Notes under the pieces: generated by a model | Told to the model about the DNA's origin: nothing | Seen by the model: only the letters and a program-made list of their open reading frames with translations | The model's database searches: none | Shown here: positions 87-17,666 of the stretch, in pieces | Layout of the letters: every line of letters begins with the position of its first letter | Numbering within the stretch: position 1 is the first letter of the stretch | Position numbers and translations under genes: made by a program | Source: Haladaptatus cibarius D43 | Lineage (GTDB): Archaea; Halobacteriota; Halobacteria; Halobacteriales; Haladaptataceae | Direction: 5' to 3' | Length of the DNA stretch: 64,000 nt | NCBI RefSeq assembly: GCF_000710615.1 | Contig: NZ_JDTH01000011.1 | Coordinates: 62,001 to 126,000 of the forward strand

Positions 87-307
87 ATTATAGAGCGGTG
101 TGTCACGAAGCGAACTCTAGTCTCAACAGCAGCTACAGTAACCCCTTCCGTGTCAGAGTGAAAGTGAACACCACGTAGAGAGGGTTATTGCAGGTTCTTC
201 TGGAGTATCTATAAGACACTCTAATTAAATAGTGAATATCAATGCTAACAATTGAAATATTGCTCTCAGTGAACAGTCCATGCGACCGAGCGGAGGGACG
301 ATAATCA

Positions 308-1477: not shown

Positions 1478-1571
1478 TTACTGAGATCGACATACGAATG
1501 TGAGTGTATAGGAGCCAGCCACCCCTCAAGAACAAATGATATTTTACTGCTTAATTACCTTGTAGTAACTG

Positions 1572-2378: not shown

Positions 2379-2449
2379 CGAGTAGAGCTAACCAACAATA
2401 TTACGAGAAACATAAACGTTGATAGTCGGAGACTGCATCCTGAATTCAT

Positions 2450-3085
2450 ATGACTTCGCTTGAAAAGAGCGTCGCGGTTGAATGTCAAGAGTGCACCCTC
2501 GGTGAGGACGCCGATGACTATAACGAGATGCTCACATTTGCAGAGAAGCATCAGGAACACACCGGTCACTCGGTCAGATGGACAACCAACACTTCGCCTC
2601 CGGATGTAGGTATCGAGGAGGGTACGAACGTTGAACTAGAATGCCGGACTTGTGATGAGACATGGTCATTTGATTCGTTTGAAGCTGCCGAGACATTTCG
2701 AAGTGAGCATGCCGAATATACAGACCACGAAGCAAACGGTACTACAGAAACCACAGTCTGGACCGGTCACTGCAACCGATGTGGTATCTCCCAGACGTTC
2801 TTGGAACGTGAGAGTGTAGAGACTTGGTGTGACGACCACCGCTCGCAGAGTAATTGTTCGGATAAAGATCTGAGTTCACTCAGCAGGCGCGATCAAATCA
2901 AGAACTTCAAACAACTCATCCAGGAACTTGAAGATGAATACGACCATGGAGCACCCATTCCGTTTGTTGTCTTGTCAGCGGAGGAACAGGGATGGTCACA
3001 AATCAAAGCGCAACAAGAGGTTGATAACCTTAAGCAGAAAGGGGAGGTCTATGAGCCAGCAAGAGGTCATCTTCGCACTACTTGA
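2450..3085 (+). CDS. Triple zinc-knuckle protein with MCM-like C-terminal winged helix
   Basis: This 211-residue protein has three related units of about 45-50 residues, each starting with a CxxC: C12/C15 with H34, H37 and H40; C65/C68 with H87 and H93; and C108/C111 with C127 and H130. These should bind zinc. Residues about 147-208 (KQLIQELEDEYDHGAPIPFV ... GEVYEPARGHLR) closely resemble the winged helix at the C-terminus of archaeal MCM helicases. A nucleic-acid-binding or replication-linked adaptor is a reasonable inference. The gene follows the HEPN gene by 71 bases on the same strand but has its own AT-rich upstream region, so an operon is uncertain. Confidence 0.75.
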   Translation: MTSLEKSVAVECQECTLGEDADDYNEMLTFAEKHQEHTGHSVRWTTNTSPPDVGIEEGTNVELECRTCDETWSFDSFEAAETFRSEHAEYTDHEANGTTETTVWTGHCNRCGISQTFLERESVETWCDDHRSQSNCSDKDLSSLSRRDQIKNFKQLIQELEDEYDHGAPIPFVVLSAEEQGWSQIKAQQEVDNLKQKGEVYEPARGHLRTT

Positions 3086-3256
3086 TTATCTCTCGGACGG
3101 GAACCTGATTCACCCGTATTGAAAGTGAACGCTCCCAGTAGATCCAACTCAACCGGTGTATAGGATAATTTGATTTTATACAAACAGACGGCCAGGCGGG
3201 GGAAGCGATCGTCCACGGGAAAAACTGATGTGCGTTCGCATACAACCGTATACTGT

Positions 3257-3295
3257 CGAGCGTCGTTGCTCGGCGTCGTTCAAACAAAATAAATA
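3257..3295 (-). terminator. Conserved 3' element of 46-residue gene, copy 1
   Basis: Downstream of the first 46-residue gene (minus strand) comes a T-rich run, the complement of 3281-3295 (caaacaaaataaata), then a hairpin CGAGC (3257-3261) / GCTCG (3268-3272). The second gene copy has the same arrangement with a different loop but the same stem. Oligo-T runs terminate archaeal transcription, so this is a plausible terminator; the role of the hairpin is inferred only from its conservation. Confidence 0.45.
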
Positions 3296-3332
3296 CGAGG
3301 TCATCGGGAATGAGTGCTCGATTGGAACTCTA

Positions 3333-3473
3333 TCACTCACCCCGATCCCGTTTTGCTACCACCAAGCCAGCAGCGATGAGTACCCAACCAGCTACGTTCT
3401 GATTAGCTACGATGGTCGCGCCAGCGGTGATAAGCGCCACGGGTACACCGTTCGTGGGTGTTCCGTTGGCCAT
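3333..3473 (-). CDS. 46-residue hydrophobic membrane protein, copy 1
   Basis: This 46-residue protein starts MANGTPTNGVPVALITAGAT and has two hydrophobic segments (VALITAGATIVANQ and GWVLIAAGLVVA) followed by a charged KRDRGE tail, as expected of a hairpin membrane protein. The ATG at 3473 is chosen because a paralogue at 15155-15295 has exactly the same length, while the sequences upstream of the two ATGs fall out of frame with each other. Promoter, palindrome and 3' hairpin are also shared. About two thirds of residues are identical between the copies. Function is unknown; a small membrane regulator, toxin-like or bacteriocin-like peptide cannot be told apart from sequence. Confidence 0.7.
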   Translation of the reverse strand: MANGTPTNGVPVALITAGATIVANQNVAGWVLIAAGLVVAKRDRGE

Positions 3474-3521
3474 TTTTTGTCCGTCTTTTACAACGGACAT
3501 GCGGAGGGTTTTCACGGCAAT

Positions 3522-3531
3522 AGTATAAAAC
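3522..3531 (-). promoter_or_regulatory. TATA box of 46-residue gene copy 1
   Basis: On the minus strand this reads gttttatact, preceded by a G/C-rich run, about 50 bases before the ATG at 3473. The same tataaaac element is at 15342-15351 before the second copy, at matching spacing from both the gene and the palindrome. Confidence 0.5.
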
Positions 3532-3545
3532 AGGGGCAGACGCTA

Positions 3546-3564
3546 GTTAGTATCTCATACTAAC
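3546..3564. promoter_or_regulatory. Palindromic operator GTTAGTAT-N3-ATACTAAC, site 1
   Basis: This is a perfect 8-base inverted repeat with spacer CTC, lying about 15 bases upstream of the TATA element of the first 46-residue gene. Identical arms occur at 15366-15384 and 10439-10457. Exact conservation of 16 bases at three places, two with the same spacing to a TATA box, points to a transcription factor site. The cognate regulator is unknown; the PadR protein at 4362-4730 is the nearest candidate. Confidence 0.65.
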
Positions 3565-3685
3565 GTTTGATAATCGATTTTTGATATCCAACGCTACCCT
3601 GTTCAAAACAGAATTGACTGAGACGATACAAAGAGCTTATGCGAGCAGGAAAACGAGGCAAAATTAGATCCAGAGGCGACTCAGC

Positions 3686-4273
3686 ATGTACCGACACGGC
3701 CACCTCGGCATCACACTTCTCATTCTCGCACCAATTTCCTATGCACTCGTCCAAACTGGTCAGTTCGCACTTACTGGGTTGCTCGTTCTTGGCGTCCTCA
3801 TTATCGAACCTCTTCCTGATAACGACCACTGGGTACCTGGACTCTCGCACCGTGGCGTGAGTCACTCGCTGCTGACCGCTGGCGTCATTGGACTCATATG
3901 TGCCGGTTGTGGTTGGCTTCTTGGACGGTATCTGACTGTCCCACTTGCACATTGGATGCAGACGAGTGTCCTTCCAGCGACCAATACGACGGTAGTTGTA
4001 ATCGCGACTGAGCAACTTGCCGCACTCACTCCCGAGACACTCGCCGGACTCGGGTTTGTCATCGGCGTTCTCGGTATTTGTGCCCATCTCGCCGGTGACA
4101 TCATTACGGTCAGCGGTATCCATCCATTCCTCCCGTTTTCTCGGCGCCGGATCTCACTGTCACGCCTTCGTGCTGCGAGCACACTCGCGAACACCGTCTT
4201 TTTGCTGCTTGGCGTGCTCGCGATGGGGACAGTCATTTTCGCACTCTCTCCGTTCGCAGGAGCGTTCCCGTAA
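3686..4273 (+). CDS. YdjM/DUF457-like membrane protein (metal-dependent hydrolase family)
   Basis: This 195-residue integral membrane protein has about five hydrophobic segments. The stretch PLPDNDHWVPGLSHRGVSHS near residues 42-61 matches the conserved metal-ligand pattern (D-x-D-H-x ... HRG-x-x-HS) of the LexA-binding inner-membrane YdjM/DUF457 family, whose members are predicted metal-dependent membrane hydrolases. A second polar motif (LAGDIITVSGIHPFLPFS) fits the family's later conserved region. The gene stands alone, convergent with the PadR gene. Substrate unknown. Confidence 0.8.
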   Translation: MYRHGHLGITLLILAPISYALVQTGQFALTGLLVLGVLIIEPLPDNDHWVPGLSHRGVSHSLLTAGVIGLICAGCGWLLGRYLTVPLAHWMQTSVLPATNTTVVVIATEQLAALTPETLAGLGFVIGVLGICAHLAGDIITVSGIHPFLPFSRRRISLSRLRAASTLANTVFLLLGVLAMGTVIFALSPFAGAFP

Positions 4274-4361
4274 GGGAATCAGACCCGAATCAAGTCCCAT
4301 CATAAACTGTGATGAGGCCGAGCGAGAGAGCGACGACGAGCAGTTAGAGATGTTTTGATAG

Positions 4362-4730
4362 CTACTCTGGCGTCACAATATCGTGCATGAATCGGTGATA
4401 CTCTTCGACCGCCCAGTCGCCACGACCGACAGTCGCATACGCATTCCGTCGCTTATCGCTTGCTTTTGTCTGCTTCGAGATCAACCCTTTCTCCACGAGT
4501 CGGTCGAGGCCAGGATATAATCGGCCATGATTGATCGGCTCAGGATAGATGTCTTCTAACGCCTCCTGCAGATCAACACCCTCAGCTGGCCCTAAGCGGT
4601 AGATGACGCACAACAGGTGTGCCTGAAAGGCAGTGAGATCAGTCGGGAGATTATAGGACGCAAAATCAAGAGCGGATTCGTTCTCGTCTGGGTCAGCAGA
4701 GTCGTCCTGGTCGGATTCTAAATTAGTCAT
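4362..4730 (-). CDS. PadR-family winged-helix regulator
   Basis: This 122-residue DNA-binding protein has an acidic N-terminal 25 residues, then a PadR-type winged helix: AFQAHLLCVIYRLGPAEG, a recognition region (PINHGRLYPGLDRLVEKGLI) and a wing ending DKRRNAYATVGRG. It lacks the long C-terminal dimerisation helices of classical PadR, as do many haloarchaeal members. A perfect inverted repeat (4722-4745) overlaps its own start codon, so autorepression is likely. It sits between the YdjM-like gene and the secretion-like cluster and could control either. Confidence 0.85.
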   Translation of the reverse strand: MTNLESDQDDSADPDENESALDFASYNLPTDLTAFQAHLLCVIYRLGPAEGVDLQEALEDIYPEPINHGRLYPGLDRLVEKGLISKQTKASDKRRNAYATVGRGDWAVEEYHRFMHDIVTPE

Positions 4731-4745
4731 ACTGGAGTGACTAAT
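4722..4745. promoter_or_regulatory. Inverted repeat ATTAGTCA-N8-TGACTAAT at padR start
   Basis: Perfect 8-base arms (4722-4729 and 4738-4745) flank an 8-base spacer; the padR start codon complement (CAT, 4728-4730) lies at the edge of the left arm. Position over the start codon suggests repression of the PadR gene by its own product or by another dimer. The arms share TTAGT with the other palindrome family of this window. Confidence 0.5.
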
Positions 4746-4925
4746 CTTCGCTACTTAAATCCTGCTATAATATATAGTGAATAATCAATGCGAAACACGT
4801 GGAAGAATACAGATCAACGCTCGTCTTTGCTGGGAAAAGATGAGTATCGACCGTCTTGACCGTCCGAAACCATCTTCAAAACGAGTCCAGATCGCTCTAC
4901 CACGCCCGCTAAAATTCAGTATATT

Positions 4926-4952
4926 ATTCATAAAGGCTAAAGTTTTTACCAC
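4926..4952 (+). promoter_or_regulatory. Promoter motif shared by pilin-like and TrbL-like genes, copy 1
   Basis: ATTCATAAAGGCTAA (4926-4940) followed by a T-rich run and TTTTTACCACG lies about 23-49 bases before the ATG at 4975. Nearly the same sequence (ATTCATAAAAGCTAA ... TTTTTACGCG) recurs at 7219-7250 before the gene at 7293. This looks like a common promoter or activator site that co-regulates the two transcripts. Confidence 0.45.
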
Positions 4953-4974
4953 GGGGAAAAGAACGAAATCGTGT

Positions 4975-5316
4975 ATGCACCTCCCATTCCGACAGCAAGC
5001 TACGTATGTGGTCACCGCCCTGTTCACGATCAGCGTCAGTACGGGCATCGCCGCCGCTCAGCAAAGCGAGATTAACAACTCGCTCAGTGAGATCGAACAG
5101 TTCGTCGCAACCACGTTGGGCCAACTCGGAGTCATTGTCTTCCTGGTTGGCGCCGCTCTGTGGTTCGTCTCCGGGCGGAACGCGAGTCGCACACAGTGGG
5201 GCTGGCGTGCGCTCTGGGGCGGCGCTGGGATGATCGTGCTCTCGGTCAGCTATAATGTGTTCGTCACCCTCTTCGAAAACCTCGCACCGGGGATGATCGT
5301 CCCACCGTTCCTCTAA
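4975..5316 (+). CDS. Small two-TM exported protein, TrbC/VirB2 pilin-like
   Basis: This 113-residue protein has a signal-peptide-like N-terminus (residues 8-27, ending GIAAAQQ) and two later hydrophobic segments (about 47-65, VIVFLVGAALWFV; about 80-98, GAGMIVLSVSYNVFV). Size, cleavable N-terminus and paired helices resemble VirB2/TrbC pilins of type IV secretion systems. The frame is open upstream to 4777, but the ATG at 4975 fits the signal peptide and a promoter-like motif at 4926. It precedes a surface-protein gene and a VirB6/TrbL-like gene, which supports a secretion or conjugation role. Similarity is structural rather than by a recognisable motif. Confidence 0.6.
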   Translation: MHLPFRQQATYVVTALFTISVSTGIAAAQQSEINNSLSEIEQFVATTLGQLGVIVFLVGAALWFVSGRNASRTQWGWRALWGGAGMIVLSVSYNVFVTLFENLAPGMIVPPFL

Positions 5317-5386
5317 CGACGGTGCGCCAGTTTCGTCTCCTGTATCTCATCGGCTGACCATCGCCCTAGACACGCTTTCCCCACGA

Positions 5387-7219
5387 ATGCCACCACTCTC
5401 GGACACACGTCTTCGGCCACTCATTCTTGGACTCATTGTGTTGCTCCTATTGCTGAGCTCGTTTACAACTGGCGTCAGCACCGACCGATTCGCGAACGCT
5501 ACTGACGTCTTCGTCTCTGATGACCCAGATCCCAATATCGGTGCACTGCCACCGTTCATTCAACCAGACCTCCGGACGATTCTTCAGTCTCCGAATATCT
5601 CGGCAGTAAATGCCAGTCGAGCTCGTGATTTCACGTATTCGACGTCCCAGCCGTCTCACGCAGTCGGGCCTCACAATCAGACGCTTGCCGAGTACCGTCG
5701 CACCAGCCTCCAGACCCTTCCGCACAATCGCTCGACGAGCGTGTGGTTTCCTGATTCGAATCGTACGAACGGTACTGTCGTTAAGAATGCGCATGTGACG
5801 ATCCTCGGGACGCAGAACGGCACCCAAACCCGTCTGGGACGACCGAATACATCGTCACAAAATCTCTTCTTGCTTCCTCGAAACGGATCTATTCTCGCCT
5901 CGCTCGATTACTCGACGGCGATTCCAAATCAGACCTGTACGGTCACGAATGGCACCAAGACCTGCATCAACTACTCCATCACAAGCCAGTCCATCAATCG
6001 GTCTCTCAGAATCGGCTCGCAAACATGGACTTCCGAGGAGACCTCACAGGAAGCCGGAGCATCGCGGCCGCTCACATACACGAACGTGCGGGCGACTGGG
6101 CGGACGACAATGGTCGTGAAAGGGACGATCACAACGCAGTTGGCCATTCACAAGACCGTCTCAATCCGGACGAACTCGGGGTGGCAGCAAACGAATGTGA
6201 CCTCGAATACGACTCTTCTTTCGCATACTGTTCGCGATGCAGCACCCGTCGTGATCACACCGAACCAGCACCTCAACGCGACGCAAACCCTCGTCACTGA
6301 CAACGGCGAACTCAAACGCATTATTCTCCGCCTGGACGGGCCGGCGACCGTCACTAATCGCCGATACTGGAGTTACGCGTCATTCAAATCCGGGCAGATG
6401 CGCCTCGAAAACGTGTGGGGCGTCTACTCCCAGCATCGTTACCAGAATGCAACGATCGGTACCCAGCATCCCAACACGACGCTCGCACTCAATACATCAC
6501 AACCGTTAGTTCCGCTCAACAGGTCGGTCAATCGCTCCTCGCCACTCAGCACGACTTCACAAAGAACAGTCCCGCCGCCAGGTGTTCTCGAGAAACAACT
6601 GATCGCCGTTCGAAGCAAGCCAGCGATTGCTCGCACAGCCTCCCAGACAGCGTCGATGGCAACCGTTAGTCGCGTTCGTACTGTTCCACTCGCTCCAGAT
6701 GCTGCACCGCTCAAGCCGACCGTCAACCTCTCATCGGTTCCACCACGGGCGTCCACTCGTGTGGTTATTACGAACGTCGATCAGCCACTCACCACGCTCT
6801 ATGATATTCATGGCGATGCAATTCCACTGAAAACGAGGACTGTCTCCGAACACCCAGCTTCGCTCACACTCACGAAGCAGGATAAGAGACACGTCCGGAT
6901 CGAACTCACTGATGCACAGACTGGGAGCCCGGTCCCTAACCAGCCGATCTATCTCCATGGGGCCGTTCAGGGTCGTGTCACCACCAACAGCAACGGTGTT
7001 GCTGTCGTCATGCGTGATGAGAGTGCCGTCGAAGCGACGTTTCGCGGTGTCGCCAACGATTCACGTGGTCTCTACTACGCCCCATCGCACAATCAGATTC
7101 GATTTGCGCCAACATCGTTCAACATCTATAGCGCACTGGTGGCACTGAGTAACGGATTCGTGGCTGTCATCGCGTTTGTGCTATTCTATCTCCCATTCCA
7201 CTATCTCCGCCGACGATAA
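5387..7219 (+). CDS. Large cell-surface protein, N-terminal signal and C-terminal membrane anchor
   Basis: This 610-residue protein has a signal or anchor helix at residues 9-28 (LRPLILGLIVLLLLLSSFTT), a long Thr/Ser/Asn-rich extracellular region with many N-x-S/T sequons, and one C-terminal transmembrane helix at about 585-604 followed by YLRRR. Residues about 505-560 look like a beta-sandwich repeat (RIELTDAQTGSPVPNQPIYL ... TNSNGVAVV), the pattern seen in Ig-like or B-type surface domains. It lies 70 bases after the pilin-like gene and 73 bases before the TrbL-like gene, all on one strand. An adhesin or external scaffold of the putative apparatus is the inference. Confidence 0.65.
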   Translation: MPPLSDTRLRPLILGLIVLLLLLSSFTTGVSTDRFANATDVFVSDDPDPNIGALPPFIQPDLRTILQSPNISAVNASRARDFTYSTSQPSHAVGPHNQTLAEYRRTSLQTLPHNRSTSVWFPDSNRTNGTVVKNAHVTILGTQNGTQTRLGRPNTSSQNLFLLPRNGSILASLDYSTAIPNQTCTVTNGTKTCINYSITSQSINRSLRIGSQTWTSEETSQEAGASRPLTYTNVRATGRTTMVVKGTITTQLAIHKTVSIRTNSGWQQTNVTSNTTLLSHTVRDAAPVVITPNQHLNATQTLVTDNGELKRIILRLDGPATVTNRRYWSYASFKSGQMRLENVWGVYSQHRYQNATIGTQHPNTTLALNTSQPLVPLNRSVNRSSPLSTTSQRTVPPPGVLEKQLIAVRSKPAIARTASQTASMATVSRVRTVPLAPDAAPLKPTVNLSSVPPRASTRVVITNVDQPLTTLYDIHGDAIPLKTRTVSEHPASLTLTKQDKRHVRIELTDAQTGSPVPNQPIYLHGAVQGRVTTNSNGVAVVMRDESAVEATFRGVANDSRGLYYAPSHNQIRFAPTSFNIYSALVALSNGFVAVIAFVLFYLPFHYLRRR

Positions 7220-7250
7220 TTCATAAAAGCTAAGAAAATATTTTTACGCG
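7219..7250 (+). promoter_or_regulatory. Promoter motif shared with the pilin-like gene, copy 2
   Basis: ATTCATAAAAGCTAA (7219-7233) then an A/T run and TTTTTACGCG, 43-74 bases before the ATG at 7293. It starts in the stop codon of the surface-protein gene. One base differs in the 15-base core from the copy at 4926. Confidence 0.45.
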
Positions 7251-7292
7251 ATGATGGCGATAGACAAGTAAACCCCATCTTTTTGACACCCA

Positions 7293-8780
7293 ATGATCCC
7301 CACCCTCCAATCACACGGCACATCCATTGTTCACAGCATCCTAGTGACGATTCCCAAGCTCGCAGTTGGAGCTGTACAACACCCGCTAGAGATGACGTCA
7401 TTCGTTCTTGCCGCCGGATTCACCGGCTGGATCGCAGATCTGTTCACCTGGTTGATGACGAGGCTAATGGGCTTTGTGGGGCTGTTGATGTCCGGTGGCG
7501 TGTACACGTTCTTGGTCTTCGATAGCCCGTATACCGATCCGCAGTACCTCCAGGCGTTTGACCACCTGCTGGGTATTTTTCCCCAATTGCTTGTGGTCGT
7601 GGTGATGGCTGGCTTTGCCTCACAGCCATTTTCAAAGAACGCCGACGTGGATAGTGTCATCCTGGTTTGGAAGGCACTCAAGGCGATTATCTTTGTTGCC
7701 GTGGGGCGCCAGCTCATGCATTTCGGCCTGCTGCTCGTGAACGCGGTCATCGCCTACATCTACCCCGAGAGCTATGGCGCATTCGGGACGCAAGTGCTCA
7801 AAACCGGGATGGAAGGCGCCGCTGCCTCGGCGGGTGTTGTTGCAGTCGGGATGGTAATTTTGAGTGTAACTTCGATTGCCGGAATTCTCCTCCTGTTTGC
7901 GATGCTGGTGATTCGGGAGTTCCTCTTCGTGGCGATGTTTGTGACGCTACCGATTTTGGCGGTGATGCTCTATCTTGACTTCGGGCCATTTGAGGATTCA
8001 GCGAAAGCAGCGAAGATGTTCATCAACGCGACGCTCTCGCTATTTCTCGCCGGAATCTTCATGGCTGCCCTCATGTATGTCGGCGCTGCTGCGATTGGTG
8101 CCACTGGATCTGGCACAGCTACACATGCAGCGGCCACTGCAGGGTCAGATCCAGGGTCGTTCAATGAAGTTCTCGAGTCGTTCCTCTTCTGGTTGATCGG
8201 CTTGGTCGCACCGGCGATCTATGGCTTGAAAACAGCCATGTCGTCGGGCTTTATTCCTGGTCGCGTACGTAGTCGGCGGAAGCGGACATCCAGAAGTCGA
8301 TCGGCTGCATCAGCAGGTGGGTCACAGGAGTCGAGCCGTGCCAGTATCATGAAGCAGGCACGGTTTGGAGGGAAGCAAGCGGGTAGCTATGCAGGTTCTA
8401 AGATGGGTTCCCTTGATCAGCGTTTCACTGGTGGAGCGGTTAGTGGAAGTGTCAGTAAAGCCAGCTCAACTGTTGGAAGCGTTAAAAGTCGTGCTGGATC
8501 CAAAATTGAAGGGCCCAGGACAGAGCAAGGGGTTGAATTCATGAAGAAAAAGGGAAAGCGAGCAAAGAGCGGTGGAAAGCGTGCTGCAAACGACGCTCGT
8601 GTCGGCACAAATTTCGCATTGCGAAATCTTGATCGCTCACCCCTTGACTGGGCAGAAGCAGGTCTGGGGCACTATCGCGAAAATCCAGTTATAGACCCAT
8701 CTGAGAATGGATCAAAAGCAGACCAAAGCACGTTGAACGAATGGACCGACTCATCCCAAGAGAAACGGGGAACCAGATAA
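7293..8780 (+). CDS. TrbL/VirB6-like polytopic membrane protein with long basic tail
   Basis: This 495-residue protein has about seven or eight hydrophobic segments in residues 40-320, including a Gly/Ala/Val-rich central pair (GAAASAGVVAVGMVILSV, ILLLFAMLVIREFLF) typical of TrbL/VirB6 channel components. From about residue 325 it becomes a Ser/Arg/Lys/Gly-rich cytoplasmic tail with no membrane segments. VirB6/TrbL proteins form part of the inner-membrane channel of type IV secretion machines. The next gene, 47 bases on, is a membrane AAA+ ATPase. I found no VirB4 or VirD4 ATPase inside the window. Confidence 0.65.
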   Translation: MIPTLQSHGTSIVHSILVTIPKLAVGAVQHPLEMTSFVLAAGFTGWIADLFTWLMTRLMGFVGLLMSGGVYTFLVFDSPYTDPQYLQAFDHLLGIFPQLLVVVVMAGFASQPFSKNADVDSVILVWKALKAIIFVAVGRQLMHFGLLLVNAVIAYIYPESYGAFGTQVLKTGMEGAAASAGVVAVGMVILSVTSIAGILLLFAMLVIREFLFVAMFVTLPILAVMLYLDFGPFEDSAKAAKMFINATLSLFLAGIFMAALMYVGAAAIGATGSGTATHAAATAGSDPGSFNEVLESFLFWLIGLVAPAIYGLKTAMSSGFIPGRVRSRRKRTSRSRSAASAGGSQESSRASIMKQARFGGKQAGSYAGSKMGSLDQRFTGGAVSGSVSKASSTVGSVKSRAGSKIEGPRTEQGVEFMKKKGKRAKSGGKRAANDARVGTNFALRNLDRSPLDWAEAGLGHYRENPVIDPSENGSKADQSTLNEWTDSSQEKRGTR

Positions 8781-8827
8781 TCTGGCTCACAGAACGCACT
8801 TATGACGGGGGAAATCTAAGATAACTC

Positions 8828-10237
8828 ATGGACGGTCAAGAAAACATAACGTCCACCGCAGCGCAGAACAATCGCTCACTCGATCCCAAGAGACTTACTA
8901 GAATTGCGCTCTCGACACTGATTGCTTCGATATGTTATTTCCTTGTTCCAATTGGATTATTATTGGTCACAGGTGAACTCGCCTCGACTGTTGGTATACT
9001 CATTCCAGCAATTATCGGAGTATTTGCTATTTGGACCGTTCCAACTCTTGTAACCTCTATAATCTATGACCTCACGAACCAGGTAGCTCGATTGGATTCC
9101 CAAGACATAGATACTGGATGGATTCTTGGAGAGGTCATCGGACTAACTCTACTAACAGGTGTGTGGTTTCTTCCGCTCTGGACCCACCTTTTCCCACAGC
9201 TTGCAGGAATCTTGCAACTCTTCCGTGTTGCTCCCATGCTCGACGAGCCATGGCTAATGGGCCTTAGTTGGATCGCATGCATTCCGATACAGTTGACGAG
9301 CTTTTCAGTAGTTCTCGGCTCGGATGAGGACCACTCAAAGGAGACAAAGAAACAGCGAGCACAATCTCGAGATCGTAACCACCAGGATAGTCAATCCACC
9401 AAACGACAAGAGCAGAGTCAGCATCAGAATCACAACAAAGAGACGATGACGGATATTCAGTCTGATTTCACATTTGGCTGGGAGTCAGCGCCCACCACGA
9501 CGTTTCGCGATGTTGGGGGCATGGACGCCCTCAAACGCAATATAATGCGGTCAGTGCTTCGCCCGCTCTCGCACACTGACGCTGCCTACGAACGATTCAA
9601 CGTCTCGCCACCAAACGGCATCCTCCTGCATGGCCCACCTGGTACCGGAAAAACGCATTTCGCTCGGGCAATTGCTGGTGAACTCGGCCATCCATACCTC
9701 GAGCTGAGCGCTGGCGATATCAAAAGCCGGTGGGTGAATGAGTCCACCGAGCAAGTTAACCAGTTGTTCAATGAGGCCGAGCAGTTCGAGCGCTGTGTGA
9801 TCTTCGTCGACGAGATAGACGCACTCCTTGCCGGTCGTGGGAACGATCTTCACCGGGAGCACGCCCAAGTCGTCAACGAGTTTCTGGCGCACTTGGACGA
9901 TGAAGACCCGAGTTTTCTGCTCATTGCGGCAACGAACCGTGCAGACTTGCTTGATGAAGCCGCCACCCGCCGTGGCCGCTTTGACCAGCAGTATGAGGTT
10001 GGTCTTCCCGACAAGGAGGCACGCGAGAAAATCTTCAAAGTCCGATTGCAAACGCTCCCGACTGAGCTCGATCAAGAGGAATACGAGAAGTTAGCCGAGC
10101 GATCCACCGAGCTCAGTAGTGCTGATATTGTTGGGATTGTTGACGACGCTGCAATGAAAGCTGCTGAACGAGATGCGCAAGCAATCACGTACGAGGATCT
10201 CGCCGAGTCGTTTCCTGATTCGATGACTACTGGATAG
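8828..10237 (+). CDS. Membrane-anchored AAA+ ATPase (FtsH/Cdc48-type domain)
   Basis: This 469-residue protein has four predicted membrane helices (about 28-48, 52-79, 100-122 and 141-163), then a highly charged Gln/His/Lys linker (165-205) and one AAA+ module. The module shows Walker A GPPGTGKT (269-276), Walker B with VDEID (327-331), sensor-1 ATN (368-370) and an Arg-finger region RRGRFD (381-386). The AAA core is of the FtsH/Cdc48 class, but there is no protease HExxH domain, so it probably remodels or unfolds proteins at the membrane. It is the last gene of the secretion-like cluster. The membrane half is clearly AT-richer than the ATPase half, suggesting a mosaic origin. Confidence 0.85.
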   Translation: MDGQENITSTAAQNNRSLDPKRLTRIALSTLIASICYFLVPIGLLLVTGELASTVGILIPAIIGVFAIWTVPTLVTSIIYDLTNQVARLDSQDIDTGWILGEVIGLTLLTGVWFLPLWTHLFPQLAGILQLFRVAPMLDEPWLMGLSWIACIPIQLTSFSVVLGSDEDHSKETKKQRAQSRDRNHQDSQSTKRQEQSQHQNHNKETMTDIQSDFTFGWESAPTTTFRDVGGMDALKRNIMRSVLRPLSHTDAAYERFNVSPPNGILLHGPPGTGKTHFARAIAGELGHPYLELSAGDIKSRWVNESTEQVNQLFNEAEQFERCVIFVDEIDALLAGRGNDLHREHAQVVNEFLAHLDDEDPSFLLIAATNRADLLDEAATRRGRFDQQYEVGLPDKEAREKIFKVRLQTLPTELDQEEYEKLAERSTELSSADIVGIVDDAAMKAAERDAQAITYEDLAESFPDSMTTG

Positions 10238-10438
10238 GAAATCAAATGGCTTGAGAAGTGTAGTTGTGGTGAGTACGATGGGTAGTAGCTGCTGATAAGG
10301 TCTCTCCCTTCATTTTCTGGTGTTCTAGGTACCTCTCGTTCATTTAAGCTATTCTTGCGACAAGGAATAGATGTGAGGAAGATTTTCACGCGATACCACT
10401 TCTCGTTGATGTCTGAGCTCCGTCTTTGACTGACGATT

Positions 10439-10457
10439 GTTAGTATATTATACTAAC
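10439..10457. promoter_or_regulatory. Orphan palindrome GTTAGTAT-N3-ATACTAAC, site 3
   Basis: The same perfect 8-base arms as at 3546 and 15366, with spacer ATT. The flank to the right (ctctatctctcg...gagctactt) partly resembles the sequence right of site 2, but no TATA box or 46-residue gene follows on the left. It may be a leftover of a third unit or an operator for something not recognised. The surrounding gene-free stretch 10238-10803 otherwise holds only a decayed repeat. Confidence 0.5.
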
Positions 10458-10559
10458 CTCTATCTCTCGTGCTGAGCTACTTCCCTCTCGAAGTATGGGT
10501 TAGTGATCGCTGGAAAATGATCACACGGTTCTCGTGACGCTCGAAGCTGCAGTGGTGCC

Positions 10560-10700
10560 TTTCAGCCGACTCGCTCTCCTTACGCGATTCGCAATTACTA
10601 TCGCCTAAATCCATAAGCGGAAGTGCAATTGCCCGAGTTGCCGCCCTCGGTGAAGCATATTTTGTCTGTCCACATCTCTCACCTGCTCCACATCGGCAGC
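10560..10700 (-). repeat. Decayed coding repeat, copy 1
   Basis: On the minus strand this region encodes, in two neighbouring frames, fragments (TKYASPRAATR and KICFTEGGN, then GDSN) that align with fragments at 16460-16625 (TKFASPRVAIR and EICFPEGGD, then GDSK). The frame changes and the poor start context indicate a decayed segment rather than a gene. I do not recognise the parent family. Confidence 0.35.
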
Positions 10701-10803
10701 CTGCCCGAACAATCAGTATCCAATAGCCATCTACTGGTTGCATGAGCAGAAGGACATCAGACACTAGAGGCACGACTGGTTAACTAAAACAGCGAAATGA
10801 GGA

Positions 10804-11166
10804 TTACGACAGTTTCGCCCGAAGTCGTTCAAACTCCTCATCGTTGATTTCACCCCGAGCGTATCGCTCTCGAAGCACCGCCGTCGCGGAGTCAGTTTCA
10901 CGCTCGGTATCGTGGCGCCCTGCGAAGATGTACACGAGCACAAGGGGGACCACAATGAGGAGACCTATCCAGAGGAGTCCCCAGAGACCCATCCAGCCGG
11001 GACCGGTCATCCAGCTGTCACCCCACATATGACCGCCCCACGAGTGAGTACCGCCGATCGTACCGTTCGTGTGAGAGACGACCGTTCCAGCCGTCGTTGC
11101 GAGGAGCACCATCGTGAGAGTGGTCAGTGTTGTTGTTCTCGTTGTGAGTCGGCGTGCGAGAGTCAT
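10804..11166 (-). CDS. Membrane protein with C-terminal SHOCT domain
   Basis: This 120-residue protein has an N-terminal signal-like helix (about 12-32), a short Gly/Trp/His/Met-rich external loop (HSWGGHMWGDSWMTGPGWMG), one strong transmembrane helix (about 62-82) and a cytoplasmic SHOCT domain at the end (LRERYARGEINDEEFERLRA). The His/Met-rich loop could bind copper weakly. Similar TM-SHOCT proteins are at 33164 and 40673, each among metal genes. Role unknown. Confidence 0.8.
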   Translation of the reverse strand: MTLARRLTTRTTTLTTLTMVLLATTAGTVVSHTNGTIGGTHSWGGHMWGDSWMTGPGWMGLWGLLWIGLLIVVPLVLVYIFAGRHDTERETDSATAVLRERYARGEINDEEFERLRAKLS

Positions 11167-11353
11167 GTGGAGCTCACCCTTACATCTACTACTACGATGT
11201 CTGATGAATTATATCAAGTCGGTGATTCTTATCCACTGAGAACAATAATCCATCGAAATTAGCGATTCCATCTCCCGTACTGTAGATGCGTCAGCTACTA
11301 TCACGATTGTGCCTTAAACACTATACTGGTGGCGGTCGAACCGTGAGGTGGCT

Positions 11354-11752
11354 ATGAGCTACACGATGACCCGCCGCGTCGATGGTCCGTTTCAAGATGT
11401 CGTCGACTCGACCGTCGACGCGCTAGAAGCCGAGGAGTTCGGCGTGCTGAGCGATATCAACCTACAAGCCAAACTCGAAGAGAAACTCGACCTCGAGGGA
11501 TATCCGGAGTACCGCATCCTCGGCGCGTGTAACCCACCGCTAGCCGAACAAGGACTGGATGCCGAACGCGACCTCGGCGCGCTGCTGCCCTGTAACGTCG
11601 TCGTCTACAAGGACGACGGCGACGTGGTCGTCAGCGCCGTTGACCCCGATACCCTGCTGGGTGTCGTCGAGAATCCAGCCCTCGACGGTATCGCCGAAGA
11701 CGTTCGCGAACGATTCGATCGCGTGTTAGACGATGTCGCCGCCGAGTACTGA
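11354..11752 (+). CDS. DUF302 family protein
   Basis: This 132-residue cytosolic protein starts at an ATG preceded by GAGGTG; a GTG two codons upstream is the alternative. The sequence follows the DUF302 fold: an N-terminal strand-helix (MTRRVDGPFQDVVDSTVDAL), FGVLSDIN, the conserved YRILGACNPPLAEQ segment with a single Cys, LGALLPCNVVVY, and a C-terminal helix. DUF302 proteins bind nucleotides or small ligands and are common in metal and oxidative-stress islands, but no reaction is established. Confidence 0.85.
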   Translation: MSYTMTRRVDGPFQDVVDSTVDALEAEEFGVLSDINLQAKLEEKLDLEGYPEYRILGACNPPLAEQGLDAERDLGALLPCNVVVYKDDGDVVVSAVDPDTLLGVVENPALDGIAEDVRERFDRVLDDVAAEY

Positions 11753-11840
11753 CGAGTTATTCCTGCCGGTGAGCGACTGGGTCATAAAGACTCGCCAGTG
11801 GTACTCCAGATAGAGCATCTACAGGCGTAACAGGCCGAGT

Positions 11841-11920
11841 ACCTCGGGGTCGTTCGAGAGAGCGACGCTCTCTCGTGATGACGAGACGCCGGAGGCGTCT
11901 CGAACCACTTGACCCGAGGC
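11841..11920 (-). mobile_element. IS200/IS605-like end, omega-RNA-like hairpin set without tnpB
   Basis: An outer stem CCTCGGGGTC (11842-11851) / GACCCGAGG (11911-11919) encloses two perfect hairpins, GAGAGAGCG-A-CGCTCTCTC (11856-11874) and GAGACGCC-GGA-GGCGTCTC (11883-11901). This nested structure resembles the right ends of haloarchaeal tnpB elements, which give rise to omega/re-RNAs. No tnpA or tnpB reading frame lies next to it. The minus-strand end touches the stop codon of a truncated copZ. The assignment is from remembered family features, not a search. Confidence 0.45.
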
Positions 11921-11923
11921 GGT

Positions 11924-12105
11924 TCACCTTTCCAAGTTACTGAAACGAGCGTGAGGATACGACAGAGAGTAGAGAACCAAGACGATGTAGCCTGCGTCTT
12001 CGATAGCTTGTGCGATGGTGTCGACATCGGTACTCCTCTCGACCCTGACCAGGTCGGCCTCGTCATCTACGGTGACGGTCTCGACGTCACCTCGTTCATA
12101 TTTAG
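11924..12105 (-). pseudogene. 5'-truncated HMA copper chaperone (copZ remnant)
   Basis: The minus strand reads ...ERGDVETVTVDDEADLVRV, then STDVDTIAQAIEDAGY, closely matching residues about 25-62 of the intact CopZ at 40058-40255 (DTDTIAQAIENAGY). The N-terminal part with the CxxC metal site is missing and there is no start codon in frame, so it cannot bind metal. The reading frame runs on to a TGA at 11924-11926, directly against an IS605-like hairpin set. It lies in the upstream region of the multicopper oxidase gene at 12177. Confidence 0.7.
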
Positions 12106-12176
12106 ATCTTCTTCCAGTATTTTTCGTAATATTCCCAATACCGCACCTTATTATCCTTCAGTTCGTACGCCAACCG

Positions 12177-13622
12177 ATGACGAACGACTCACGTCTCTCC
12201 CGACGCGCCCTCCTTCGTGGACTCAGTGTCACAGGAATTGGTTCCCTGGCTGGCTGTTCCTCCAGTTCCGTCCCGTCGTTCGACGAGCAAAAGACAGTCG
12301 CCCCACGGACGACGGTGTCGGGCAACCCGGACGTGCAAACCACACTGACTACCTCCCCTGGTACAGTGTCGCCCGCCTCTTCGTCGGCACAGAATTGGCT
12401 GTACAACGGGTCATTCCCTGGCAACGAACTCCGCGCCAAAGAAGGCGACATCGTTCACGTCGACTTGCAGAACCAGCTTCCTTCGGAAACGACGATACAC
12501 TGGCACGGGCTTCCTGTTCCCAACCAAATGGACGGCGTACCGAACGTGACCCAACAGCCCATCCAGCCCGACGAGACGTTCACGTACAAATTCCGGGCTG
12601 AACCGGCGGGAACGTACTTCTTCCACAGCCATGCTGGTCTCCAACTTGATCGCGGACTGTACGCCCCGCTCGTAATCGAAGAAAAATCACCACACGTCAA
12701 GTACGACCGCGAATACACTCTCCTCTTCGACGACTATCTGGCCCGCTCACCCGAACCGCTCGGGGAGTCGTCGAGCGGTGGTGGCGGAATGGACGGCGGT
12801 ATGGGTGGCATGGGTGGTATGGGCGGCGGTGGAATGATGGGTGACCAACGCCCCCCGTACGCCGGCTTACTCGTAAACGGACGTCTTCCAGCAGACCCTG
12901 CATCCTTCGATGTGACGGAAGGAGAACGAGTTCGCTTACGGTTCGTCAACGCAAGCAGTGCAACGGCGTTTCGTGTCGGGATTGCCGGACATAAACTACG
13001 GATATCGCACGCCGACGGGCAACCCATTGACACCGTCCCAGTGGATTCGTTCGTTTTTGGGGCTGGCGAACGCTACGATGCCGTCATCGAAGCGACGAAT
13101 CCCGGTGCATGGGAACTACGAGGGGAAGCAGTCGATGGCGACGAACAGCCGGCTCGTGCAGTCCTTCGGTATGGTAATACGTCGGAGTCACCAACCGGTC
13201 TCAACTCGTGGGGACAGACACTCCAGTATGGGGATCTGCGAGCAAAGCAAATTCCGAAGCAACTCCGCGGAACTCCCGACCGAACCTTCGACCTGACACT
13301 CTCGCCCGAGATGGGCGGCTCGTATGGCTGGCTCATCGACGGACAGGCGTATCCCGACGCCGATCCGTTACAGATTCGAGAAGGTGAACACGTGCGCGTG
13401 AAGATGACGAATCGGAGTCCGGTGCTTCATCCGATGCACCTCCATGGGCATTTCTTCCGTGTCGGAGACGCAATGAAGGACACGGTCATCGTGCCGGGTC
13501 ACATGGGGTCGGTGACGTTCGACTTCCTCGCAGACAACCCCGGCAACTGGTTCTTCCACTGTCACAACCTCTATCACTTGGAGGCGGGGATGGCCCGTGT
13601 CATTAAATACGTCAGGGGATAG
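12177..13622 (+). CDS. Tat-exported multicopper oxidase (CopA/CueO-like)
   Basis: This 481-residue protein has a twin-arginine lipoprotein signal: RR at residues 9-10 and a lipobox LAGC ending at Cys27. It carries all four copper motifs: HWHG (108-111), HSH (150-152), HPMHLHGHFF (418-427) and HCHNLYHLEAGM (461-472, the type 1/3 copper site). A Gly/Met-rich insertion at 200-222, like the Met-rich segment of CueO, may bind Cu(I). It probably oxidises Cu(I) outside the cell for copper tolerance. The ATG at 12177 gives the complete Tat signal; the open frame upstream is in the copZ remnant. It is convergent with the DUF411/DsrE pair. Confidence 0.93.
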   Translation: MTNDSRLSRRALLRGLSVTGIGSLAGCSSSSVPSFDEQKTVAPRTTVSGNPDVQTTLTTSPGTVSPASSSAQNWLYNGSFPGNELRAKEGDIVHVDLQNQLPSETTIHWHGLPVPNQMDGVPNVTQQPIQPDETFTYKFRAEPAGTYFFHSHAGLQLDRGLYAPLVIEEKSPHVKYDREYTLLFDDYLARSPEPLGESSSGGGGMDGGMGGMGGMGGGGMMGDQRPPYAGLLVNGRLPADPASFDVTEGERVRLRFVNASSATAFRVGIAGHKLRISHADGQPIDTVPVDSFVFGAGERYDAVIEATNPGAWELRGEAVDGDEQPARAVLRYGNTSESPTGLNSWGQTLQYGDLRAKQIPKQLRGTPDRTFDLTLSPEMGGSYGWLIDGQAYPDADPLQIREGEHVRVKMTNRSPVLHPMHLHGHFFRVGDAMKDTVIVPGHMGSVTFDFLADNPGNWFFHCHNLYHLEAGMARVIKYVRG

Positions 13623-13757
13623 CTCCTCGGGACGTGTGTTTACACAGTAGAAGGCCTCACATTGGTGTAGGCTACCCGGATAACGGTTCATCCCATCTGG
13701 AGAAGTCTGGTTTATTCACTTGCAGTGGTCAGAATCATCAGCATCGAAGCCATGATA

Positions 13758-14285
13758 TCAGATAGTCATGAACTTACGATAGGAGCCATCTTTTTCCATT
13801 GCGTAAATAACGAATTCCTCGGTTTTCTCGCCTCCCATACCGGGTGATCCCGCTGGCATTTTTGGGAGTGCAATGCCGAGAATGTCTGGTTTTTCAAGTG
13901 CAAGCTTTCCGATTGCTTCTCGAGGAACATGACCTTCCACGATGTATTTCCCAGTGTCCAAAGTGTGGCAGCTCACGAGCTTTTTTGGCACATCAAATCT
14001 TGACTTTACTTTCATCAGGTCATCTATATCTCTCACCGACATATCCACATCTGTTGTTGATTCGAGGTACTTCTTATGCCCTTCACAACACATGCAGTTT
14101 GGTGCTTTGTAGAGGGTGGCTTTCGTCAAATATGTCGTCGCTGCTTGACGGAGCTGCTTTTCGTTCCCATCCGTCTTGTATTTCATATTGGTCTCGGTCT
14201 GACCACTGTTCGTACAGCCAGCAACTGCTCCCAGCCCTGCTGTCGTAAGTGTGCCGAGGAAGGCACGGCGATCGAGGTTTGTCAT
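13758..14285 (-). CDS. DUF411 copper-linked metal-binding lipoprotein
   Basis: This 175-residue protein has a Tat-type signal (RRAFLGTLTTAGLGAVAGC, lipobox Cys about 24) and a DUF411 domain. The hallmark Cys cluster is APNCMCCEGHKKYL (about residues 60-73), and SCHTLDTGKYIVEGHVP about 40 residues later is also family-typical. DUF411 proteins bind metal and are found in copper and silver resistance loci. It lies 50 bases downstream of the DsrE-like gene on the same strand and probably shares its transcript, facing the multicopper oxidase gene. Confidence 0.9.
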   Translation of the reverse strand: MTNLDRRAFLGTLTTAGLGAVAGCTNSGQTETNMKYKTDGNEKQLRQAATTYLTKATLYKAPNCMCCEGHKKYLESTTDVDMSVRDIDDLMKVKSRFDVPKKLVSCHTLDTGKYIVEGHVPREAIGKLALEKPDILGIALPKMPAGSPGMGGEKTEEFVIYAMEKDGSYRKFMTI

Positions 14286-14335
14286 AGGTATTTTCTCTAT
14301 GTATCGGAATATTGATTTGGCATCGTAATTTTGTG

Positions 14336-14815
14336 CTATGGAACCTTGATGTATCCGAAATCAAGTGCTTGCAGGCGAGCGAGTTCACCGACACCAGACG
14401 GGACCTGTTCGACCCCTGAGAGGAGATCGTCCTTCGTGAGGCCCAGCATCTCCATTGCATTCCCACAAGCACGGAACGTAACGCCACGATCCTGGAGCGA
14501 CGCAATTTGATCTGCGAACTCGTTGTCGTCGGTCGGCGGTGTGTACAGTTGTACCCCTTTGCTGTTCGCTAACACGACGAGATCCTTAACAGGAACACTC
14601 TCATCGTCCAGAAGATTCTTTCCGTTCATTAGGGCACCTTTGTGGGCCATCGAGTCGCCGCTCGAGAGATGAAGAACTGTTTTCGTTTTCGGTGCGGGTC
14701 GCGCGCACGAGTTTTGCTGTGCGGGATGATCCGTGTTCCTCGCACTTACCGATTCACTCCCTAGGAGTATCGCACCAAGCGTGCCAGTTACCGAGACGAA
14801 GTTCCGTCGTTGCAT
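14336..14815 (-). CDS. Exported DsrE/DsrF-like protein
   Basis: This 159-residue protein starts MQRRNFVSVTGTLGAILLGS, a twin-arginine-like signal without a clear lipobox. The rest resembles DsrE-family sulfur-relay proteins: VLHLSSGDSMAHKGALMNGK, a Rossmann-like VKDLVVLANSKGVQL, and a conserved Cys in GVTFRACGNAMEML (about residue 118). An extracytoplasmic DsrE paired with DUF411 and opposite a multicopper oxidase suggests a thiol-persulfide or copper-thiol role outside the membrane. First gene of a likely two-gene operon. Confidence 0.85.
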   Translation of the reverse strand: MQRRNFVSVTGTLGAILLGSESVSARNTDHPAQQNSCARPAPKTKTVLHLSSGDSMAHKGALMNGKNLLDDESVPVKDLVVLANSKGVQLYTPPTDDNEFADQIASLQDRGVTFRACGNAMEMLGLTKDDLLSGVEQVPSGVGELARLQALDFGYIKVP

Positions 14816-15085
14816 CTACTGATATCGTTGTACGAAATTGGGATAAATACACTGTAGTAACTGCGGGCGCTGAGAAGTAGCAAAACGTATTTGTATTCCG
14901 ATTAAAGTGGCGGATAGGGAAACCATTTATGTCGGAAGGATTCGTTTGAAATTTCCTCATTAAATCATAAGCAGCGATGGAGATTTCCCGAGAACGCTGT
15001 CGTAATCTCTGTGTCAAGGGTAGGTTGTGACGGATGCTGAAATCTCCACAAAACCTAAATCACAGACGCGTGTAGTATTGACTGT

Positions 15086-15123
15086 CGAGCCCGATTGCTC
15101 GGCGTCGCGAAAACAAATAAAAT
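15086..15123 (-). terminator. Conserved 3' element of 46-residue gene, copy 2
   Basis: On the minus strand a T-rich run (complement of 15109-15123) is followed by a hairpin CGAGC (15086-15090) / GCTCG (15097-15101). Stem, spacing and T-run match the element at 3257-3295, while the loop differs. Confidence 0.45.
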
Positions 15124-15154
15124 GCGACGTTTGGGCGAGTCTGCTTGGAGAGCT

Positions 15155-15295
15155 TCACTCGCCCTGTTTCCGTCTTGCTACCACCAATCCAGCAGCGACG
15201 AGTATCCATCCAGCAGGTTGCTGGCTGGCAACGATCGTCGCTCCGGCAGTGATGAGCGCAACGGAAACACCATGCGACGGTGTTTCTGTCGTCAT
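15155..15295 (-). CDS. 46-residue hydrophobic membrane protein, copy 2
   Basis: This protein starts MTTETPSHGVSVALITAGAT and continues through a second hydrophobic stretch (GWILVAAGLVVA) to RRKQGE, the same length as the copy at 3333-3473. ALITAGATIVA and AAGLVVA are identical in both. Substitutions are conservative and mostly at codon third positions, so both copies look under selection. TATA box, palindrome and 3' hairpin are conserved at equal distances. Function unknown; predicted membrane hairpin. Confidence 0.7.
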   Translation of the reverse strand: MTTETPSHGVSVALITAGATIVASQQPAGWILVAAGLVVARRKQGE

Positions 15296-15341
15296 TTTTG
15301 TCCGCCGTTTCAGACGGACACGCAGGCCTTCTCACGGGAAT

Positions 15342-15351
15342 CGTATAAAAC
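15342..15351 (-). promoter_or_regulatory. TATA box of 46-residue gene copy 2
   Basis: On the minus strand this reads gttttatacg about 50 bases before the ATG at 15295, at the same relative place as the box at 3522-3531. Confidence 0.45.
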
Positions 15352-15365
15352 AGCGGCAGACGCTT

Positions 15366-15384
15366 GTTAGTATGATATACTAAC
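15366..15384. promoter_or_regulatory. Palindromic operator GTTAGTAT-N3-ATACTAAC, site 2
   Basis: Perfect 8-base arms with spacer GAT, about 15 bases upstream of the TATA box of the second 46-residue gene. Same arms and promoter spacing as site 1 at 3546-3564. Confidence 0.65.
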
Positions 15385-15509
15385 AATTATTCCTCTCCTG
15401 TGCTACTTAAGCAGCTGTTCTGATCACTGGACCGTAACGTCCCCAGATGCACGCTTGTGCGTTGATGAGAAGGTGATGATAGAGCCGTTGTGCTACACAC
15501 GTATCGAGA

Positions 15510-15731
15510 TCATAGTGGCCGCAGATCTCGCCAGCGAAAATCCATTTGATCGCCATTGTTGAACTGAACCCGATAGAGTCGGTTGTCGCGCCGGTCACCA
15601 GTGATATCGCTCGCATCATCCGCGATGATTTCAGCAACACTCCCCTGTCGATCGTGGGCTGTCTCAAAGTCAGGATCACTCTTGTCAGGAATATCGACAC
15701 GGACGCGATCCCTCACACTGAAACGGTGCAT
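15510..15731 (-). CDS. Small haloarchaeal SH3-like protein
   Basis: This 73-residue soluble acidic protein has a compact beta pattern: RDRVRVDIPDKSDPDFE, a glycine turn (RQGSVAEIIADD), then LYRVQFNNGDQMDFRWRDLR. The arrangement of short strands around a DRV...G.V...Y.V...G......DLRP frame resembles small SH3-like barrels that are common in haloarchaea. No catalytic residues are evident. It stands alone, and function is unknown. Confidence 0.75.
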   Translation of the reverse strand: MHRFSVRDRVRVDIPDKSDPDFETAHDRQGSVAEIIADDASDITGDRRDNRLYRVQFNNGDQMDFRWRDLRPL

Positions 15732-15778
15732 GAACGCCGCTAGTAGGTGCCGATGGTTATGTGGATCACAGGCGCAAA

Positions 15779-15800
15779 GCCTCGCCCTTTAGGGCGGAGA
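15779..15800. mobile_element. IS200/IS605-like hairpin end relic
   Basis: GCCTCGCCC-TTTA-GGGCGGAG forms a perfect CGCCC/GGGCG stem with flanking bases typical of haloarchaeal tnpB-element ends. No transposase frame follows in 15801-16117, so this is a relic if it is one at all. The rest of that 300-base stretch contains no gene I can support. Confidence 0.35.
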
Positions 15801-16085
15801 TACGCGCCGTACGCTTACTTTCACACCCGCTGTCGATGGTCTGGCCGGATATCCCACGCCAAATCAGTAGTATTTCTTCCACGGTGGCGCTGAGTTGGAG
15901 CACTCGACAAGTTACAACGGAGGCCGGCATTGGGGGCGGTGAGCTATGGTATGTCCATTTGAGATAACGATGGTCGAAGAACGACTGAAAGGTCGCTGAA
16001 TCGACTACGGTAGGTGTTGAAATGATTTCTCATACTACTACCAAGTCGAACCATTCTTTATGATTAGTGTCACAAAATGCCCGGA

Positions 16086-16096
16086 ATTTTTATTCA
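16086..16096 (+). promoter_or_regulatory. TATA box of small membrane protein gene
   Basis: The T/A-rich box (attttTATTCA) is centred about 28 bases before the ATG at 16118, the distance expected for a leaderless haloarchaeal transcript. It supports the start chosen for that gene. Confidence 0.45.
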
Positions 16097-16117
16097 CTTT
16101 CTAATTCACCCTGAACT

Positions 16118-16324
16118 ATGGTTTCAGTCGTCGCACTTGTCTTTGGATTGATTTGTGTCGTGTTCGGCGCGTCGATGATACGAGATCCAAGCGCTCCAGA
16201 CAAATTCTGGTATCCCGAAGATGATCCGACGCACGGTCGAATCGCTCGGCGGGTAGTCCAGGTGATGGATGGGCTGTGTCTCTTCTTCGGCATCGTCGTG
16301 TCGTATTTCGGCTCTGGACTCTAA
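16118..16324 (+). CDS. Small two-TM membrane protein
   Basis: This 68-residue protein has two hydrophobic segments, residues 3-20 (SVVALVFGLICVVFGASM) and about 48-65 (VMDGLCLFFGIVVSYFGS), joined by a polar loop with PDKFWYPEDDPTHGRIARRV. The loop is acidic and rich in aromatic residues, as in many conserved small haloarchaeal membrane proteins. A TATA box at the leaderless distance supports expression. No family name is recognised. Confidence 0.6.
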   Translation: MVSVVALVFGLICVVFGASMIRDPSAPDKFWYPEDDPTHGRIARRVVQVMDGLCLFFGIVVSYFGSGL

Positions 16325-16459
16325 GGTGAATCCATTCAAAATCCCAAGGACTTCCCCGATGAGCAGTTTACTGTCGTCACGTCTACCAATCGTTTATTAG
16401 ACTCTCCTAGTTTTGCTTAGTGCAACATGGAGTAGTAAGACAACTGAACCATAGCCAAT

Positions 16460-16625
16460 TCACTCTTCATGGGTGAGCAGGACAAATTTACTGTCCCCTC
16501 AAATCAGAAGTGGAAATGAAATGGGGCGGATCGCCACCCTCGGGGAAGCAAATTTCGTCGACCGTACAAATGGGAGGTTTGCGGCCCAATCTCAGTTTCC
16601 GAAACTGAATGATTTGCATCTACTT
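16460..16625 (-). repeat. Decayed coding repeat, copy 2
   Basis: The minus strand contains TVDEICFPEGGDPPHFISTS then, one base out of frame, GDSKFVLLTHEE and a stop, while a third frame gives STKFASPRVAIR. These match pieces of the segment at 10560-10700. It looks like the C-terminal end of a lost gene with a frameshift. It lies just before the NAD(P)-binding protein gene, in the otherwise gene-free stretch 16325-16658. Confidence 0.35.
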
Positions 16626-16658
16626 CCCTCCTCGCCACCCATCACTTCCCTTTGACTA

Positions 16659-17579: not shown

Positions 17580-17666
17580 ACGCAGACTGGCACCGTTTTC
17601 GAATGTAAATATTTGTCTCAGTTTTCATTTTTCTGGCGAATAAATGAATCCTCGCTCAAATCTGCA

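Follow-up and report, generated by a model that had tools for sequence, protein, structure and literature searches.

Plasmids of the archaeal genus Haladaptatus carry a dispersed 19-bp palindrome whose probable cognate is a plasmid-encoded, MraZ-like protein of 139 aa, and two small genes in the window (the 64,000-nucleotide stretch of Haladaptatus cibarius D43 analyzed here) each have one copy of this palindrome in front of their promoter. We propose that each of these units, on a plasmid-like replicon, consists of a short, regulated gene encoding a membrane protein of 46 residues, and that the palindrome upstream of its TATA box would be a binding site of the 139-aa protein. The protein would control its own gene through the same site at its own start codon, its sites would be spread over the secondary replicons of the genus, and the two small genes would be members of a plasmid-wide regulatory network. 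With the TATA box as promoter element, transcripts would begin near a leader hairpin; the mRNA would then open with a conserved structure right before the ATG, and this structure probably governs translation or stability. We place the probability of this reading, taken as a whole with its regulated unit, MraZ-like binder, network and structured leader, at about 0.6.

The dispersed palindrome with its probable regulator and the covarying leader are more interesting than the duplication of the units. Haloarchaeal plasmids are large and numerous, and the protein–site pair is a testable regulator–operator candidate. A second element open to testing is the leader hairpin, and with the small protein family several genomes gain an unannotated gene that is under selection.

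Two units with the same parts at the same spacing

The window sits on a plasmid-like contig of 146 kb (C11) in a genome of 3.93 Mb, and the nearest plasmid relatives of this contig are all from Haladaptatus. The features of the two units are as follows.

3333–3473, minus strand: 46-codon ORF of unit 1 including its stop, predicted two-helix membrane protein MANGTPTNGVPVALITAGATIVANQNVAGWVLIAAGLVVAKRDRGE
15155–15295, minus strand: 46-codon ORF of unit 2 including its stop, paralogue of unit 1, MTTETPSHGVSVALITAGATIVASQQPAGWILVAAGLVVARRKQGE
3546–3564, no strand assigned: 19-bp palindrome GTTAGTATCTCATACTAAC upstream of unit 1, exact match
15366–15384, no strand assigned: 19-bp palindrome GTTAGTATGATATACTAAC upstream of unit 2, exact match
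10439–10457, no strand assigned: third exact copy of the palindrome, intergenic, without a unit
3523–3530, minus strand: TATA box TTTTATAC of unit 1, from its sequence and a palindrome spacing equal to other copies
15343–15350, minus strand: TATA box TTTTATAC of unit 2, from its sequence and a palindrome spacing equal to other copies
3479–3498, minus strand: leader hairpin of unit 1, GTCCGT..ACGGAC, 5 nt before the ATG
15300–15319, minus strand: leader hairpin of unit 2, 4 nt before the ATG
3257–3294, minus strand: 3' T-run of unit 1, then hairpin CGAGC..GCTCG, with weak covariation
15086–15123, minus strand: 3' T-run of unit 2, then hairpin, with weak covariation
15081–15431, minus strand: ~350-bp segment common to unit 2 and a unit on an H. 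caseinilyticus plasmid, with unrelated outer flanks

Direct-repeat families of 145, 56, 50 and 29 nt link both units in register, with start-to-start distances of 11820–11829. The spacing between palindrome and TATA box is identical in every related unit copy that retains the palindrome. Both results bear out an earlier sequence-only reading, in which the two units were said to share the same parts at the same spacing. That reading correctly placed a palindrome at each unit and overlooked the third copy. The 3' T-run and hairpin that it described are also real, while their covariation is weak and the better-supported leader hairpin went unmentioned.

A dispersed palindrome and its 139-aa neighbor

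The palindrome reads GTTAGTATNNNATACTAAC (TTAGTATNNNATACTAA). All nine Haladaptatus genomes contain it, in 5–26 exact copies each, and it is absent from the 19 other genomes of the family; reversed controls gave none. Across the class (391 genomes), it appears outside Haladaptatus in just two genomes, with one copy each. The window alone holds three exact copies, against 0.06 expected even with up to three mismatches. The 5–26 copies per genome rule out a private operator of the unit. The earlier assignment as the unit's own operator therefore gives way to a site that is one of many dispersed copies, with a separate plasmid-encoded protein as its putative cognate.

Reading 71 exact sites showed mostly unrelated flanks and gave the symmetrised consensus GTTAGTATwNwATACTAAC. 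Sites lie inside ORFs of at least 100 aa in 14% of cases, compared with 62% of random places, and some of the ORFs behind that 14% are simply the 139-aa frame prolonged upstream. To call the dispersed sites "operators" may be wrong, because most of them are away from recognizable promoters. In two long-contig genomes the largest replicon is free of all 40 sites; since the largest contig of H. pallidirubidus carries some, restriction to secondary replicons is a tendency and not a rule. On contig C1 of an H. pallidirubidus genome (G394), two pairs of palindromes (1545025/2096874 and 1643182/2195031) are each 551849 bases apart, a spacing that suggests a large duplication or an assembly repeat.

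The commonest neighbor of the palindrome is an unannotated gene for a 139-aa protein. In all 13 copies seen, the palindrome stands 6 bp before the ATG of this gene, and several copies have a second palindrome directly after the stop codon. The gene occurs in exactly the same 9 of 28 family genomes as the palindrome, a co-occurrence that represents one clade and one event rather than nine independent observations. It is multicopy on Haladaptatus plasmids and also found on other haloarchaeal plasmids. D43 has intact copies on contigs C12 (L011:2841-3257) and C10 (L013:2285-2701), with the palindrome at the fixed distance. The gene was not found on C11, so any action at the sites in the window would be in trans.

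The association of gene and inverted repeat extends beyond the genus. Homologues of 139–150 aa occur on plasmids of five haloarchaeal families with the 19-bp architecture 2–6 bases before the start. Outside Haladaptatus, 12 of 23 homologues are preceded within 60 nt by a perfect 19-bp inverted repeat, compared with 0.05 in shuffles, and 11 of these 12 repeats lie 2–4 nt before the start codon. The repeats in other genera are mostly GTTAGTAnnnnnTACTAAC or GTTAGCA variants, with GTTCGTAnnnnnTACGAAC in others. The form GTTAGTANNNNNTACTAAC is present at one to four copies per genome in several other genera, often right at the 139-aa homologue gene, and is absent from five relatives tested that lack this gene. 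In one genus, a group of homologues whose starts immediately follow an upstream stop codon shows no upstream palindrome. On a Halosegnis marinus plasmid (L131), the variant GTTCGTAnnnnnTACGAAC occurs twice near the 139-aa homologue, including after its stop; a joint change of site and protein would offer a good test of specificity. The 139-aa proteins thus form a family with a recognizable candidate cognate site, one that spans five haloarchaeal families and has multiplied strongly within a single genus. Neither palindrome nor protein is described in the literature searched, whose coverage largely leaves aside subscription papers.

A likely MraZ-like fold

Structural comparison suggests what kind of protein this is. 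The AF2 model of the 139-aa protein has a pLDDT of 92.7, and VIA-align ranks five MraZ structures first (Z 7.0–7.3, PDB entries such as 9sz7, 1n0e and 9r4j), aligned over residues 1–127; the next match scores 3.8. A Z below 8 by itself can reflect a common arrangement, yet the uniformity of the top hits and the gap to the rest make an MraZ-like (tandem AbrB-like) fold likely, if not certain. The AbrB-like label was first guessed from sequence and draws its support from this structural comparison. Foldseek searches of the PDB and of viral models returned no significant hit or E-value, none of 24 family members matched the Pfam MraZ family at E <= 1, and no Pfam, NCBIfam or PDB sequence match appeared, ParB/KorB included. 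With MraZ as the closest model, the 139-aa protein probably binds the palindrome and regulates its own gene.

The parallel with MraZ, its best structural match, extends to gene arrangement. The binding site of MraZ lies within the promoter of its own gene (PMC8475190), and the 139-aa gene likewise has a site-like element of its own. Unlike the direct repeats AAAGTG[T/G] that form the MraZ site in Mollicutes (PMC8475190), however, this element is an inverted repeat. The 139-aa gene is moreover archaeal and plasmid-borne rather than part of a cell-division cluster, and its product lacks a Pfam MraZ match.

The two kinds of site also differ from each other in geometry. The palindrome abuts the start codon at the 139-aa gene, whereas at the unit it lies upstream of the TATA box, and the 139-aa protein may work in another way at each of them, or have no action at the unit. 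The fixed palindrome–TATA spacing suggests a role at the unit promoter.

Dispersed sites on plasmids recall KorB of plasmid RK2, which has several dispersed O_B operators both near and far from promoters (PMC11790492). Haladaptatus plasmids share the feature of dispersed palindromic sites; they differ in that the sites are found on many replicons and the 139-aa protein has no sequence match to ParB/KorB. A bolder version of our proposal, which we advance tentatively and regard as doubtful, is that an archaeal MraZ-like protein reads the multi-copy palindrome as a global plasmid silencer or organizer, filling a KorB-like role with an unrelated fold and counting small membrane-protein genes among its targets.

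A selected family of small proteins

The genes for the 46-residue proteins form a genuine small gene family, because units recur in Haladaptatus and palindrome-free orthologues occupy fixed chromosomal places. Whole or decayed units were found in eight of nine Haladaptatus genomes; the same search found none in other close genera save for one 23-base match. The chromosomal orthologues have intact ORFs and sit at flank-matched places in several species, one group between genes for phosphoglycerate mutase and NurA (both read from sequence) and a second before an ABC exporter gene. Close relatives of the protein are confined to Haladaptatus among the genome contigs searched, and remote relatives of 43–47 aa occur in other haloarchaeal families. 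The viral contigs searched contained no relative.

Both window copies look to be under selection as proteins. They are 70% identical, their differences fall 9/6/20 by codon position (20 of 35 at third positions), and their dN/dS is 0.27 (bootstrap 0.11–0.57). The sequence-only reading had taken both proteins to be selected and had set this ratio beforehand as a test; the value is not near 1. It had also named absence of homologues as a sign against its reading, and Haladaptatus units, chromosomal orthologues and remote haloarchaeal relatives all exist. Comparing unit 2 with a broken H. caseinilyticus copy gives a dN/dS of 0.72. Stop codons interrupt some plasmid copies in H. caseinilyticus, H. 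pallidirubidus and H. halobius, and since several plasmid copies have broken ORFs, the unit gene is dispensable.

The protein is hydrophobic by hydropathy, with two hydrophobic helices and a basic C-terminus, and it is modelled, with modest confidence (pLDDT 67), as a two-helix hairpin, features that predict a location in the membrane. No Pfam or NCBIfam family fits it, in agreement with the earlier reading, which knew of no family for these proteins. LiaF-TM (PF22570) matches residues 10–41 of unit 1 weakly (E 0.029) and does not match unit 2; its 15.6 bits are well under the curated cut-off of 27.

A covarying leader hairpin

Of 17 genes examined, 16 have a hairpin a few bases upstream of the ATG, with a stem sequence that varies. 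Across 15 sequences, 99% of cells are paired, and five of seven pairs have changed on both sides. Double changes number 17, as against 5.0 in shuffled alignments and at most 5 in slid controls. Related sequences may exceed shuffles without any structure, so the slid controls and the number of changed pairs weigh most, and both agree with a structure. The leader hairpin is thus conserved by compensatory changes. The 3' hairpin has one compensatory pair, seen in two sequences, and the hairpins folded upstream of the remote 43–47-aa relatives were not comparable. Rfam gave no match in positions 1–20000 of the window.

The usual archaeal promoter geometry would put the transcript start near the leader hairpin, and the unit mRNA therefore probably begins with this evolutionarily conserved structure. 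Haloarchaeal mRNAs are mostly leaderless, which makes a covarying hairpin directly before a start codon unusual.

Alternative explanations

The same observations could be read in other ways. The palindrome might be a plasmid segregation or nucleoid site, centromere-like and bound by the 139-aa protein, with its position beside the small gene incidental. Such a role would suit dispersed, intergenic sites that lie mostly on secondary replicons, with all 40 off the largest replicon in two genomes, and a plasmid-borne protein whose gene in some plasmids has a Cdc6 or ParA gene a few kb away or less. We nevertheless consider it unlikely: no ParA partner is consistently adjacent to the 139-aa gene, other genera carry the site mainly at the homologue gene itself, and the constant distance to the TATA box in each unit copy with a palindrome suggests a promoter role. 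Less probable still is a toxin: the product of the unit would be a small membrane peptide with toxic action, restrained by the leader hairpin together with the regulator. Its counterparts would be bacterial type I toxins and other tiny hydrophobic membrane peptides, which are likewise small, hydrophobic and multicopy with structured leaders, and the 46-residue peptide fits this description, with several copies on plasmids and chromosomes, a structure before the ATG and frequent decay. Unlike these toxins, however, it has intact orthologues at fixed chromosomal places, and its model has two short helices, not one long one.

A small mobile element of MITE type, with the palindrome and the 3' hairpin as its ends, would explain why unit 2 looks like a ~350-bp transferred copy between unrelated flanks and why genomes contain scattered partial and decayed copies. 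We regard this as very improbable. The palindrome is found at many unrelated sites that have no unit. Upstream of unit 1, more than 1.4 kb of flank recurs on three other Haladaptatus plasmids, the limits of the shared segment change from one compared pair to the next, and no terminal repeats or target duplication are visible at unit 2. These inconstant boundaries speak against a self-mobile unit, which we rejected, and we found no precise ends of the sort that would identify a MITE or an IS200/IS605-type element. On the H. caseinilyticus plasmid, the flank is ~80–95% identical to that of unit 1 over most of its length and the unit is closer to unit 2 (88% over 351 nt), which implies that units have been exchanged or copied by recombination. 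The idea of a "mobile or amplifiable" unit, to be judged by comparing flanks, thus survives in part: the copies differ from genome to genome and whole units are found repeatedly in Haladaptatus, but unit 1 sits at a conserved plasmid locus and the copies have no constant ends. Slightest of all is the chance that the unit yields a non-coding RNA, its ORF being incidental. Promoter, leader and 3' hairpins are kept even in copies with stop codons, yet the low dN/dS of the pair, changes biased to third positions, intact chromosomal ORFs and remote protein relatives in other families all argue for a protein. In our preferred reading, a regulated small gene with a structured leader, the unit would belong to a gene family whose copies arise by recombination and would not be mobile by itself.

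Gene content between the units

The 12 kb between the units holds copper and AAA-ATPase genes and is unrelated to the units, as the sequence-only reading had stated. The palindrome at 10439–10457 is flanked by an AAA-ATPase gene and a small membrane-protein-like ORF. Positions 5387–10237 form a row of plasmid genes seemingly matched in order and size on the H. caseinilyticus plasmid NZ_CP111038.1; the large genes at 5387 and 7293 have no Pfam family, and the third encodes an AAA ATPase. Adjoining unit 2, genes for a multicopper oxidase, a DUF411 protein and a DsrE-like protein at 12015–14815 make up a possible copper-handling cluster.
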